A DNA stretch of 33,321 nucleotides from assembly GCA_007130525.1 (NCBI GenBank), contig SLSJ01000174.1:1-33321 (forward strand). Reading direction: 5' to 3'. The DNA comes from Ectothiorhodospiraceae bacterium (GTDB lineage: Bacteria > Pseudomonadota > Gammaproteobacteria > Nitrococcales > Aquisalimonadaceae). Shown piece after piece: positions 123 through 23,823 of this stretch. Under the pieces are notes generated by a model, which was given only the letters and a program-made list of their open reading frames with translations, was not told where the DNA came from and did not search any database. Position 1 is the stretch's first letter. The number at the start of each line of letters is the position of its first letter. The translations under genes and the position numbers were made by a program.

Positions 123-3580
<3,458 letters not shown>

Positions 3581-4354: not shown

Positions 4355-4978
4355 ATGACACAGTATTTTGAGATCCATCCGGTGACCCCACAGTTGCGTT
4401 TGCTGAGGCAGGCGGTTCGTATCATTCGCGACGGCGGAGTCGTGGTCTACCCCACGGACACGACCTACGCCCTGGGCTGCGGCATGGGGGAGAAGGCGGC
4501 GATCGAGCGGATCCGCCAGATACGACAACTGGACAAGGGACACAACTTCACCCTCGCCTGTCGGGACCTTGCCGACATCGGCACCTATGCGCGCATCGAG
4601 AAAACCGCATATCGTCTGATCAAGGCGTTTACACCCGGCCCCTATACGTTCGTGCTGCGCGCCACGTCCGAAGTTCCGCGACGGCTGCAACATCCGAAGC
4701 GCAAGACCATCGGCATCCGTGTGCCGGACCATGCGATTGTCCGCGGCTTGCTGGAGGAACTCGGCGAACCGCTGATGACGACCAGTCTGCTGCTCCCGGG
4801 GCAGGACATCCCGTTCACGGAGGCAGCGGACATCCGCGCCCGGCTCGAGGGACAGGTGGATCTCATCATCGACGGTGGCGCCTGCGGGCTGGAGCCGTCC
4901 AGCGTGGTGGATCTCTATGACGGCGTGCCGGTGGTGCTGCGCAAGGGCGCCGGCGACGTGACCGTGTTCGCGGAGTGA
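4355..4978 (+). CDS. YrdC/Sua5-domain protein, YciO-like (L-threonylcarbamoyladenylate synthase family)
   Basis: [55 protein letters not shown] motifs; start at ATG 4355. Confidence 0.9.
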
Positions 4979-5048
4979 CCGCTGTCCGATTTCTGCCGAT
5001 TCGGCTGTTCTGGGTTATCATCGGCCGCCATATTGCATCGGCGATTGC

Positions 5049-6285: not shown

Positions 6286-7119
6286 ATGGAGGAAGCGGTG
6301 AACGAGCAGCTCACAGCCGAAAGGATGACGCCGGAGGAAGCCGTTGCGGTGACGTCCACGGTCAGGGTGCGCGGTGAGCGGCTGACGGAGTTGCCGCGCG
6401 ATCTCTACATACCGCCGGATGCCCTGGAAGTCTTCCTGGAAGCCTTCGAGGGCCCTCTCGATCTCCTGCTCTACCTGATCCGCAGGCAGAATCTCGATGT
6501 TCGGGATATCCCGATTGCCTCGATCACACGACAGTACATGGAGTATGTGGAGTTGATGAAGGATCTGCGGCTGGAACTCGCCGCCGAGTACCTGGTGATG
6601 GCCGCGGTGCTGGCGGAAATCAAGTCGCGCATATTGCTGCCCCGGCCGGTGCAGGCCGAGGAGGAGGACGAGGATCCCCGCGCCGAACTGGTCCGCCGCC
6701 TGCAGGAATACGAACGCTACAAGACGGCCGCCGAGAACATGGACTCCCTGCCGCGGATGGGGCGCGACCTGTTCGGCGCATCCGCATGTTCCCGCGGCAT
6801 GGAGGCCGGACGGCGGGAGCCGGAGGTCAGCCTGCAGGAACTGCTGGCGGCACTGGCCGACGTCATGGCCCGCGCCGAAATGTTCTCTCATCATCACGTT
6901 CAGCGGGAGACGCTGTCCGTGCGGGAGCGGATGAGCCAGACACTCGAACGACTCAGCGCCGATTCCTTCACCCAGTTCCACGACCTGCTTCGGCCCGAGG
7001 AGGGCAGACGCGGCATCGTGGTCAGCTTCCTGGCTCTGCTGGAACTGATCAAGGAGGCGCTGGTGGAACTGGTTCAGTCCGAGCCGTTCGCTCCAATCTA
7101 TGTGCGGGCCCGGGCGTAA
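6286..7119 (+). CDS. scpA: Segregation and condensation protein A
   Basis: FEGPLDLLLYLIRRQNLDVRDIPIASITRQYMEYV; adjacent to scpB. GTG 6298 with upstream ggagga is an alternative start. Confidence 0.94.
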   Translation: MEEAVNEQLTAERMTPEEAVAVTSTVRVRGERLTELPRDLYIPPDALEVFLEAFEGPLDLLLYLIRRQNLDVRDIPIASITRQYMEYVELMKDLRLELAAEYLVMAAVLAEIKSRILLPRPVQAEEEDEDPRAELVRRLQEYERYKTAAENMDSLPRMGRDLFGASACSRGMEAGRREPEVSLQELLAALADVMARAEMFSHHHVQRETLSVRERMSQTLERLSADSFTQFHDLLRPEEGRRGIVVSFLALLELIKEALVELVQSEPFAPIYVRARA

Positions 7120-7998: not shown

Positions 7999-8841
7999 AT
8001 GGACGAAAAGCTTCAGAAGGTTCTTGCCCGAGCCGGTTACGGGTCCCGCCGCCAGATCGAACAGTGGATCGCGGAGGGACGCGTGCAGGTCAACGGCGAG
8101 CCGGCGCGCCTGGGTGACCGGGTCACCGGCACCGAGCGGATACGCTGCAACGGGCGGCTGGTGCCCCGGGAGAAGCTTGCGGGCAGCCAGCGCAAGGTAC
8201 TCATGTATCACAAGCCGGTGGGCGAAATGAGCACGCGGCACGATCCGGAAGGCCGCACTACGGTATTCAACGCCCTGCCCGGGCTCGGCTCCGGTCGCTG
8301 GATCAGCATCGGCCGGCTGGATCTCAATACCCTGGGTCTGCTGCTGTTCACCAACGATGGCGAACTTGCCAATGCGCTGATGCATCCTTCCCGGGCGGTG
8401 GAACGCGAGTATGCCGTGCGCGTGTTCGGCGAGGTCGACCAGGCCATGCTGCAGCGGCTGCAGACCGGTGTGGAACTGGAGGACGGCACCGCAGCCTTCG
8501 ACTCCGTGGTCGCCGGGGGTGGCGATCGCGAAGGCGGTAATCAATGGTTTCACGTGGTGCTTCGCGAGGGGCGTCGCCGCGAGGTACGCCGATTGTGGGA
8601 GTCCCAGGGTGTGCAGGTCAGTCGCCTGATCCGGGTACGCTACGGCCCCATCAGGCTGCCCAGGGACCTGCCCCGGGGCAAATGGCGGTTTCTCAAACCC
8701 GAGCAGGTGGACGCGCTGGCCCGTGCGGCCGGATTGGCCGAGGCGTCCCGACCGGAGCCGTCCCTGCACCGGCACACGCGGGCGCGGGGCAAGGCGAGGG
8801 CGGGGCGCAAGCCGGGCGCCGGGAAGGTCAGGAAGGCATGA
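7999..8841 (+). CDS. rluB: 23S rRNA pseudouridine synthase, RluB-type
   Basis: S4 domain ([31 protein letters not shown]), [27 protein letters not shown] catalytic region, [10 protein letters not shown]; basic tail. GTG 7987 alternative start. Confidence 0.93.
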
Positions 8842-9557
8842 TGTCGCGGCCGGCGCCACGGGCGCGGGAACGAACACCGGACACCGAGCGTCGAACCATG
8901 TCCCGGGTCGATCTCCAGAGCATCTATCGCGAACTGCTGGACTGGTGCGGCCCCCGGCACTGGTGGCCCGCGGAGCACGGTTTCGAGGTCGTCGTGGGCG
9001 CGGTTCTTACCCAGAATACGGCCTGGGGCAATGTCGAAAAGGCGCTGGATCGGCTTCGTGACCGGGATCTGCTGGATCCGGCCGCCATGCTGGCCGAAAG
9101 TCACGAGGGCCTGGCCGAAGCCATTCGTCCGGCCGGCTACTACAACCTCAAGGCAAAGCGGCTACGAAACCTGGTTTCCACCCTGCACGCCGATGGCGGA
9201 CTGTCGGCATGGGACGGCATGGCCACACCGCGGTTGCGCGAGCGGCTGCTCGCTGTCAATGGGGTCGGCGAGGAGACGGCCGACTCGATTCTGCTGTATG
9301 TCTTCCGCCGGCCCGTATTCGTGATAGACGCCTATACCCGGCGCGTCTTCGGGAGGCTCGGTCTGGTTCGCGGTGATGAGCCCTATCGCGCGCTCGCTGA
9401 CATGTTCGAGAGCGAACTGGGCCCGGACGAAGCGCTCTACAACGAATACCATGCGCTGATCGTGGCCCTGGGAAATCGCGTGTGCCGGCCGAAACCGTTC
9501 TGCGGGCGCTGTCCGCTCGCGCACTGCTGCGACTGGATCAGGAACGCATCCTCCTGA
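8838..9557 (+). CDS. Endonuclease III-like HhH-GPD DNA glycosylase with 4Fe-4S loop
   Basis: [60 protein letters not shown]-x6-C-x2-C-x5-C at C-terminus. ATG 8838 overlaps the rluB stop; 8898 is an alternative. Confidence 0.88.
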
Positions 9558-21096: not shown

Positions 21097-22173
21097 ATGT
21101 CACGTGTTTTCAACTTCAGTGCCGGGCCGGGCGCCCTGCCCGAGCCGGTCCTGCGCCAGGCGGCCGAAGAGATGCTGGACTGGCGGGGTTCGGGCATGTC
21201 GGTGATGGAAATGAGTCATCGGGGCAAGGAGTTTGTCTCCATTGCCGCCGAGGCCGAGGCCGATCTCCGGGCAATACTTTCGGTGCCGGACAACTACAAG
21301 GTGCTGTTCCTGCAGGGTGGCGCGTCCGGCATGTTCGCCGGTGTGCCCATGAACCTGCTGCGGGGACGTGCGCGCGCGGATTACGTCAACACCGGTTCTT
21401 GGTCGAAGAAGGCCATCGCCGAGGCCGGAAAGTTCTGCGACGTGAACGTGGCCGCGGCGAGCCCCGAGGGCGTGCTGACCATTCCGCCGCGAGACACCTG
21501 GAAGCTCTCCGACGATGCCGCCTACCTGCATTACTGCCCCAATGAGACGATTTCCGGCGTCGAGTTCCATTGGGTGCCGGAGGTCGCGGCGCCACTGGTG
21601 GCGGATATGTCGTCGACGATCCTCTCCCGGCCCATCGACGTTTCGAAATTCGGCCTGATCTACGCGGGTGCCCAGAAGAACGTCGGGCCTGCCGGGGTGA
21701 CCCTGGTAATAGTCCGCGACGACCTCATCGGGGAGGCGTTGCCCGGCACGCCGACGGTCTGGGATTTCAAGGTGCAGGCCGATGCGGGCTCCATGTCCAA
21801 CACTCCGCCCACCTACGCCTGGTATGTCGCGGGCCTGGTTTTCAAGTGGATCAGGGAACAGGGCGGACTCGATGCCATGGCCGAGCGCAATCGCCGCAAG
21901 GTGGAGACGCTGTATCGCGCCATTGATGCATCCGACTTCTACTCCAACCCCGTGGATCCGGATTGCCGTTCGTGGATGAACGTGCCGTTCGTTCTCGCCG
22001 ACAGCTCACTGGACAAGACATTTCTGGCCGAGGCCCGGGACGCCGGACTGGTTACACTCGCCGGTCATCGGTCGGTCGGCGGCATGCGCGCCAGCTTGTA
22101 CAACGCCATGCCGCAGGAGGGCGTGGACCGCCTGGTGGAATTCATGGCCGATTTCGAGCGCCGCAACGGCTAG
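21097..22173 (+). CDS. serC: Phosphoserine aminotransferase
   Basis: [61 protein letters not shown] stop shared with repeat copy 2. Confidence 0.97.
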
Positions 22174-22353
22174 CCCGCATATCTCGCCGCCGTTCGTCGC
22201 GAGGGCGTCGGGATGCCGCTGTGACGGGGGGCACGGACCGAAAGACGGCGACGGCGTAGCTGACACTGCGTCGAGCCGGCTGCAGCGGGTACGCCCCGAC
22301 ACGGCGAGCAGATCGGCGTGCGTAACAGAAGGGCGGTGAGACATGCGGGCCAG
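22170..22353 (+). mobile_element. MITE-like intergenic repeat, copy 2 (core 22174-22349, 176 bp)
   Basis: CTAG-cccgcatatctcgccgcc ... ggcggtgagacatgcggg-CCAG; same core length as copy 3, about 16 substitutions by eye and no indels. Confidence 0.88.
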
Positions 22354-22473
22354 GCGCCTGTCGCAGCGGGGCGATCGCCGCGAGCCGCGATCGGGACCGT
22401 GGCGCAGGAGACCCGTCCCAAGCCCGACAAGTGCCCGGGCGGGGTAATTCGGCCGCGTATGGTGGAGACAAAG

Positions 22474-23643
22474 ATGTACAGAATTCTTACACTCAACAAC
22501 ATTGCCGCGAAAGGGCTGGAGCGTCTGCCCCGTGACCAATACGAGGTTGCCTCGGAACTGGCGTCCCCGGACGCCATACTGGTGCGCTCCCACCGGATGC
22601 ACGACATGGAGATGCCCGAGTCGTTGAAGGCCATCGGCCGGGCCGGCGCGGGCGTCAACAATATTCCGGTGGAGGCCATGAGCCACCGGGGCGTGGCGGT
22701 GTTCAACACGCCGGGCGCCAATGCAAACGCGGTCAAGGAACTGGTGCTGGCCGGCATGCTGCTCGCGGCTCGCAATATCTGCCAGGGCTGGGAGTTTGCG
22801 CGTAATCTCTCCGGTGATGATGCCGAAATCAACCGGCAGGTTGAGGCAGGAAAAAAGCAATTCCGGGGCATCGAGCTTCCCGGCCGTACCCTGGGCGTGG
22901 TGGGGCTCGGCGCCATCGGCGTCAAGGTTGCCAATGCCGCCCGCGCCCTGGGGATGAGCGTGGTGGGACTTGACCCCGGCATTACCGTGAGCCGCGCCTG
23001 GGAACTTGAATCGGGTGTACGCCAGGCGCACAGCGTGGACGAACTCATGAGCCGCTCGGACATGATTTCGCTGCACGTGCCGTTCAACGAACATACCGCC
23101 AACCTGATCAACGAGGACAGGCTCGCCCTGATGCGTCCCGGCGGCACGCTGCTCAACTTCTCGCGTAGTGAAATCGTCGACGAGGCGGCGGTAGTGGCGG
23201 CGCTGGATGCCGGTCGCCTGCATGCCTACGTCAACGACTTCCCATCCAGGCTCACCAAGCAGCACCCGCGCTGCGTCACCCTGCCGCATCTGGGCGCCTC
23301 CACGGTCGAGGCGGAAGAAAACTGCGCGGTTATGGTCGTGGAGCAGATACGGGATTATCTTGAGACCGGCAACGTCAGGAACTCCGTCAACTTGCCGGAC
23401 ATCCAGATGCCGCGCGGTGACAAGGGCGACCGGATGACCGTCGTCAACGCCAATGTGCCCAATATGCTGGGGCAGGTATCCACGATGCTGGCGGAAGCGG
23501 GTCTCAACATCGACGACATGTACAACAAGTCGAGTGGCGATATCGCCTATACGCTGGTGGACGTCGAGGGCTCGATTCCCGATGCCGTGGTCCGGAATCT
23601 GCGGGCCGTGGACGGCGTGCTCGCCGTCCGCGTCATACGCTAG
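22474..23643 (+). CDS. serA: D-3-phosphoglycerate dehydrogenase (short form with ACT domain)
   Basis: GRAGAGVNNIPVEAMSHRGVAVFNTPGANANAVKEL, GVVGLGAIG, NFSRSEIVDEAAV, LPHLGASTVEAEENCA, C-terminal ACT NVPNMLGQVSTMLAEAGLNIDDM. Confidence 0.94.
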   Translation: MYRILTLNNIAAKGLERLPRDQYEVASELASPDAILVRSHRMHDMEMPESLKAIGRAGAGVNNIPVEAMSHRGVAVFNTPGANANAVKELVLAGMLLAARNICQGWEFARNLSGDDAEINRQVEAGKKQFRGIELPGRTLGVVGLGAIGVKVANAARALGMSVVGLDPGITVSRAWELESGVRQAHSVDELMSRSDMISLHVPFNEHTANLINEDRLALMRPGGTLLNFSRSEIVDEAAVVAALDAGRLHAYVNDFPSRLTKQHPRCVTLPHLGASTVEAEENCAVMVVEQIRDYLETGNVRNSVNLPDIQMPRGDKGDRMTVVNANVPNMLGQVSTMLAEAGLNIDDMYNKSSGDIAYTLVDVEGSIPDAVVRNLRAVDGVLAVRVIR

Positions 23644-23823
23644 CCCGCATATCTCACCGCCGTTCGTCGCGAGGGCGGTGAGATGCCGCTGTGACGGGGG
23701 GCACGGAGCGGAAGCCGGCGAAGGCGTAGCTGAGACTACGTCGAGCCGGCTGCAGGGAGTACGCCCCGACACAGCGAGCAGATCGGCGTGCGTAGTAGAA
23801 GGGCGGTGAGATATGCGGGCTAG
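23640..23823 (+). mobile_element. MITE-like intergenic repeat, copy 3 (core 23644-23819, 176 bp)
   Basis: Perfect 22-bp inverted termini including CTAG: ctagcccgcatatctcaccgcc / ggcggtgagatatgcgggctag. Confidence 0.9.

Follow-up and report, generated by a model that had tools for sequence, protein, structure and literature searches.

The serC and serA genes of an Ectothiorhodospiraceae bacterium each end on a TAG stop codon that directly borders a copy of a dispersed repeat. This arrangement raises the question of whether the stop belongs to the gene or to the element. If the CTAG at the border is a target duplicated on insertion, the genes would have been left intact, and if it is part of the element, the element would have supplied their stops. 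We analysed the 33,321 nt of contig SLSJ01000174.1 (hereafter the window) together with the remainder of the assembly, related genomes and named genomes from several phyla.

The repeat bordering serC and serA

The window contains three copies of one repeat (Table 1). The serC gene ends in GGC TAG and serA in CGC TAG, and in both cases the TAG completes a CTAG, directly after which the element starts with CCCGCATATCTC. The original prediction had read copies 2 and 3 in this way, and had set the CTAG at the right border of copy 3 against CCAG at those of copies 1 and 2; the sequence agrees on both points. The left end of copy 1 is lost, and only its right border is readable. As had also been stated, TGA is the commonest stop (471 TGA, 81 TAG and 59 TAA among stops without element contact in a 767-kb sample).

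Table 1. Repeat copies, target duplications and adjoining genes in the window (contig SLSJ01000174.1, 33,321 nt)
Feature	Position	Strand	Remarks
Copy 1 of MITE	139..307	+	left terminal repeat degraded
Copy 1, right duplication	308..311	+	decayed to CCAG
serC	21097..22173	+	TAG stop 22171-22173 within copy 2 left target duplication; same end codon in orthologues of 7 relatives
Copy 2, left 4-bp target duplication CTAG	22170..22173	+	contains serC stop
Copy 2 of 176-bp palindromic MITE	22174..22349	+	IS1380-type
Copy 2, right duplication	22350..22353	+	decayed to CCAG
serA, 389 aa	22474..23643	+	TAG stop 23641-23643 within copy 3 left target duplication
Copy 3, left 4-bp target duplication CTAG	23640..23643	+	contains serA stop
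Copy 3 of MITE	23644..23819	+	intact reference copy; terminal inverted repeat CCCGCATATCTCACCGCC / GGCGGTGAGATATGCGGG
Copy 3, right 4-bp target duplication CTAG	23820..23823	+	intact

The repeat is a 176-bp near-palindrome, the consensus of which carries an 18-bp perfect terminal inverted repeat, and the mean identity among copies is 93%. A 19-base terminal pattern (up to three mismatches) matched 648 times in the 2.65-Mb assembly, as compared to 0 matches for its reversed control, and this number of ends corresponds to a genome copy number of about 320. The repeat is thus short, non-coding and dispersed in many copies, as MITEs are. Many contigs start or stop inside a copy (e.g. C141:1-182 and C146:1-182), and much of the fragmentation of the assembly is probably due to the repeat. 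A conserved RNA hairpin was rejected: although folding of the strand is highly stable (z -11.6), covariation contributes a term of only -0.5, which provides no evidence of RNA-level selection on the hairpin. An Rfam search of the window gave no match, and no terminator-like or promoter-like site was found at the elements. In the open 60-codon frame on the minus strand, there was no convincing sign of coding selection in the window genome (3 stops versus 3.8 expected); the substitutions are consistent with neutrality, and coding selection on this frame was rejected.

The flank and stop statistics below refer to 767 kb sampled from the 2.65-Mb assembly, which is fragmented and 87% complete, and the genes were called with a home-made codon-usage caller trained on the window genome. 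We started from 46 stringently paired copies, and a profile search then yielded 71 complete copies. These copies are mutually related, and their counts do not represent independent events.

Transposase family and target duplication

The original prediction had associated the repeat with the IS5 family, an assignment that the transposases present do not uphold. Within the window genome, no match to DDE_Tnp_1 (PF01609) was obtained, and contig C260 carries a decayed IS1380-type transposase (PF13701, E=3.4e-16, 85 residues, with an internal stop). The 15-bp end of the MITE, CCCGCATATCTCACC, is found without a mismatch (15/15) about 82 bp upstream of the reading frame of this remnant. The remnant (locus L127, 1288-1671) consists of a decayed transposase start next to a left terminal repeat that is still intact. 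No second IS1380 transposase was detected in the window genome, and this 87% complete, fragmented assembly yielded no intact one.

In named genomes, CTAG followed by the 15-bp end occurs, among the matches listed, in Gamma- and Alphaproteobacteria, Acidobacteriota, Myxococcales and Gemmatimonadetes. The Arenicellales chromosome OX638343.1 bears two intact 1784-bp IS1380 copies, the ends of which are identical to the MITE end at 14/15 and 15/15 positions. Both copies are flanked CTAG/CTAG within different outer flanks, and the 471-aa transposase of this element matches PF13701 (DDE_Tnp_1_4) with E=6e-152 over 455 aa. The MITE and its intact IS1380 partner therefore have the same target (YTAR at the MITEs, CTAG/CTAG at both IS copies), and the OX638343.1 elements tie both the ends and the target of the MITE to IS1380. 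On the basis of these sequences, the repeat is assigned to the IS1380 family and not to IS5, and the ends and target in common suggest that the MITE was mobilised by an IS1380 transposase.

The flanks of the copies reveal the nature of the CTAG. When the 4-mers on the two sides are compared in the 46 stringently paired copies, position 1 agrees in 43/46 and position 4 in 43/46, as compared to about 33 and 35, respectively, with shuffled partners (p<5e-5). The 71 complete copies are flanked by CTAG/CTAG (26), TTAG/TTAG (4), TTAA/TTAA (2) and CTAA/CTAA (1), with one-sided decay in others, including CCAG/CTAG (8) and CTGG/CTAG (7). Given that TTAG/TTAG and CTAA/CTAA are non-palindromic, they tell direct duplication apart from a motif inverted at the two termini, and the inverted combination TTAG/CTAA was found in 0/71 complete copies in the window genome. 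Head-to-tail copies have exactly one 4-mer in common, as expected if the second copy had inserted into a 4-mer duplicated by the first. Since the flanks match as direct repeats, YTAR is a target duplication and not element sequence: the duplicated 4-bp target is YTAR, mainly CTAG, and lies outside the element proper. Of the two readings originally offered, the covarying flanks thus bear out duplication of CTAG, and disfavour CTAG as a part of the element. YTAR was also found at the borders of copies other than those in the window.

Gene ends at the element borders

We compared the element-adjacent gene ends with those of relatives. The orthologues of serC end on the same codon in all seven relatives, and those of serA on the same codon or, in some relatives, one codon later. 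The stops of these orthologues are mostly TGA, and a pre-insertion CTAG is thus not seen directly at these two genes; the closest case is serA of the relative G006, which ends in an element-free CGC-TAG. For ten element-adjacent TAG genes with reciprocal best hits in the element-free congener G002, the C-termini lie within 0-2 residues in 9/10. Their G002 orthologues stop in TGA (7), TAG (2) and TAA (1), which does not differ significantly from the orthologues of free TAG genes (TGA 15, TAG 7, TAA 6; n=28). Since stop identity drifts between these species, the TGA of the relatives is no evidence against a former CTAG. The use of TAG is the same in the window genome (118/656) and in the element-free congener (130/707), and CTAG stops, occupied and free together, amount to 49/656 and 38/707, respectively, with no significant excess in the window genome (p=0.12). 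The proposal that insertion at a stop-codon CTAG keeps the gene intact therefore holds, as the gene ends of the orthologues coincide with, or lie close to, the element-adjacent ones.

These data bear on three other explanations. If CTAG were the terminal inverted tetranucleotide of the element, the element would supply new stops, replacing or truncating the native gene end. The CTAG at most borders and the TGA in the serC and most serA orthologues of relatives would be in keeping with this, and GTAG REPs are reported to give flanking ORFs TAG stops (PMC3733652). However, the non-palindromic flanks agree as direct and not as inverted repeats, and both the orthologue ends at or close to the same codon and the equal total TAG share in the element-free congener disfavour stop creation by the element, which we consider very unlikely. 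Insertion into CTAG with duplication of TA only, as in the IS630/mariner type, would be indistinguishable at CTAG targets, but the duplication extends to the outer positions 1 and 4 (43/46 each) and no DDE_3 transposase (PF13358) was detected in the window genome; we rejected it as hardly credible. An IS5-family element duplicating YTAR draws on the YTAR-type duplications known in other MITEs, such as the CTAG or YTAA that passages of PMC3189936 give for MITEPsy1. It was likewise rejected, with next to no probability left to it, because PF01609 transposases are missing here and the same terminal repeat is present on IS1380 transposons and on the IS1380 remnant of the window genome.

With the YTAR established as target duplication, we counted how often it serves as a stop. 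A predicted gene stops exactly on the TAR of the border in 24/71 complete copies (34%) of the 767-kb sample (another count flagged 25, including one gene running off its contig), and 13/50 borders of incomplete copies are also stop-fused, while a random noncoding position would act as a stop junction at about 0.7% per border; the frequency at the copies is thus well beyond a chance rate. The free CTAGs of the sample comprise 49 intragenic, 61 intergenic and 18 at stops. In the comparison with the CTAG background that the original prediction had called for, the stop share is 34% of copies versus 14% of all free CTAGs (p=0.001). Against the noncoding free CTAGs (23%), the values are 24/71 versus 18/79 (p=0.09), and 20/55 versus 18/79 when only CTAG-target copies are taken (p=0.065). 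No copies lie within genes, except possibly one at L122, whereas 38% of the free CTAGs are intragenic (p=1e-11); a disrupted gene would appear as a reading frame entering the element. At L122 (9892-10689), a predicted gene with a weak coding score reads across an entire copy and stops on the TAG of the right duplication, and this call is doubtful.

About 31 CTAG stops of the sampled genome are occupied versus 18 free, an occupancy of about 60%. All ten of the fused genes that were tested have Pfam domains (10/10), including ETF alpha, T2SS protein N, PhoU and two binding-protein-dependent permeases. At L099 (contig C104), three stop-fused copies (4866-5041, 6842-7017 and 8718-8893) sit in one co-directional gene run with PhoU and two binding-protein-dependent permease genes, which resembles serC-serA of the window.

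This occupancy, the 34% of copies at stops and the 13/25 in the genome G038 described below could point to active targeting, beyond YTAR itself, of stop codons or of the 3' ends of genes, with transcription termination or terminator structure as a possible guide. The excess over noncoding CTAGs is small, however, with neither comparison reaching significance, and many copies lie elsewhere in intergenic DNA. Strong active targeting was therefore rejected, and we judge targeting of this kind to be improbable. Target specificity together with loss of intragenic insertions best explains most of the pattern. Accordingly, the 'neutral niche' originally proposed stands insofar as the gene is left intact at its stop, but it is better termed survivorship, given the slight excess over noncoding CTAGs (p=0.06-0.09).

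The two duplicates at a gene end differ in their fate. Among the borders not serving as stops, YTAR is lost in 42/118, while the borders with strong in-frame coding just upstream comprise 20 intact stops and 0 decayed ones (Fisher p=0.0004 versus 42/118). No gene was found whose frame crosses a decayed border and enters the element; the sole read-through, at L122, is in a different frame. The gene-proximal duplicate is kept and the other drifts, as at copy 2, with CTAG at serC and CCAG on the far side. This is best explained by purifying selection that keeps the stop-bearing duplicate, and the contrast between the kept and the decaying duplicate points to selection acting on the target duplication.

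Related elements and implications

In G038, a complete genome from another family of the same order, hairpins of 54 to 444 bp carry the same end, and 13/25 sampled copies are stop-fused. The size variants at its loci L140-L169 (54, 146, 168, 176, 194, 444 bp and others) have a common end and CTAG. Some borders at these loci are unequal (CTAG/CTAA, TTAG/CTAA), which makes for a less regular duplication than that of the window genome. At loci of named genomes from several phyla, collected with CTAG as a requirement at one border, 15/45 copies are stop-fused. Convergent genes flank five copies, and in each case the stops of both genes fall in the border duplications (L148, L153 and L164 in G038; L251 and L256 in named genomes); the pairs include PAP2-domain protein/flavoprotein, GST/aminotransferase and YfaZ/M23 peptidase, most with Pfam domains. 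Before insertion, such a pair would have been a 4-bp tail-to-tail overlap at one CTAG or similar, and duplication would hand each gene its own stop. In Thioalkalivibrio sulfidiphilus, some 176-bp copies lie in frame inside large genes, where element plus duplication make up 180 bp, or 60 codons. In-frame copies adding about 60 residues (ARISH...GGEICGL) occur at L224, L263 and L279 (T. sulfidiphilus records) and at L282; their hosts are an outer membrane efflux protein, RrnaAD, a UvrA-like protein and ribonucleotide reductase.

The IS1380 family (DDE_Tnp_1_4, PF13701) offers a close comparison, with an identical terminal repeat, CTAG flanks and a transposase remnant in the window genome. The window element differs as a 176-bp non-coding derivative with a 4-bp YTAR duplication, and IS1247 of this family is listed with a 5-bp repeat (PMC3281130). 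In a piggyBac tree, IS1380 transposases form the outgroup, and TTAA is the prevailing piggyBac duplication, next to the variants TTAG and CTAA (PMC10813416); the CTAG of the window MITE would fit this type of duplication. According to passages of PMC3189936, MITEPsy1 of Pseudomonas syringae, probably derived from ISPsy2, is likewise a short non-coding element that duplicates CTAG or YTAA. It differs from the window MITE in its GGAAGG... terminal repeats and length of 100 bp, and these passages do not describe a stop-codon position for it. The RAYT-associated GTAG-type REPs, whose termini often provide TAG stops for flanking ORFs, are also palindromic, intergenic and present in high copy (PMC3733652). 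In REPs, however, the TAG belongs to a 20-40 bp repeat associated with tyrosine transposases, whereas here it lies in a DDE-type target duplication; and where REP/RAYT elements have a one-end tag and no target duplication, the window element has 176 bp, two terminal repeats and a 4-bp direct duplication. The Rickettsia palindromic elements (RPE) are short palindromic repeats tolerated in frame within genes (PMC3733652). The T. sulfidiphilus copies resemble them in this tolerance, while the window-genome copies disrupt no coding frame, save the doubtful L122. MITEs, CTAG/YTAA duplication and TAG-supplying REPs are therefore already known, and the IS1380-derived version is new; no report of IS1380-derived MITEs on stop codons was found in the literature searched, which covers a minority of subscription papers.

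Taken together, the repeats are probably non-autonomous MITEs moved by an IS1380-family transposase, which, judging from the ends in common, would recognise the 15-bp end. Insertion at YTAR, mostly CTAG, would duplicate the four bases, as the flanks attest, and the near-absence of intragenic copies suggests that insertions inside reading frames are removed by selection. YTAR carries TAG or TAA on both strands. Where the target spans the stop codon and the final base of the sense codon before it, an intact stop would still adjoin the gene after duplication. Since the duplication rebuilds the stop, insertions there would be close to harmless for the protein and would survive, after which selection may retain the stop-bearing duplicate while the other decays. 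We hold this account as a whole, from IS1380-driven movement and YTAR duplication to survival at stops and retention of the stop-bearing duplicate, to be very probable.

The CTAG/YTAR specificity could itself be an evolved low-harm strategy, in which gene ends are safe because the target is self-complementary and presents a stop codon on either strand, an idea that we regard as possible but rather doubtful. If true, it would explain the occurrence of one terminal repeat across several phyla as well as the occupation of about 60% of CTAG stops, and the safe landing sites would include the shared ends of convergent genes. The findings give a countable account of how a dense mobile family can lie inside essential operons (serC-serA; PhoU and permease-domain genes) with the proteins unbroken. 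For annotation, a TAG stop bordering such a repeat is to be taken as the native gene end.
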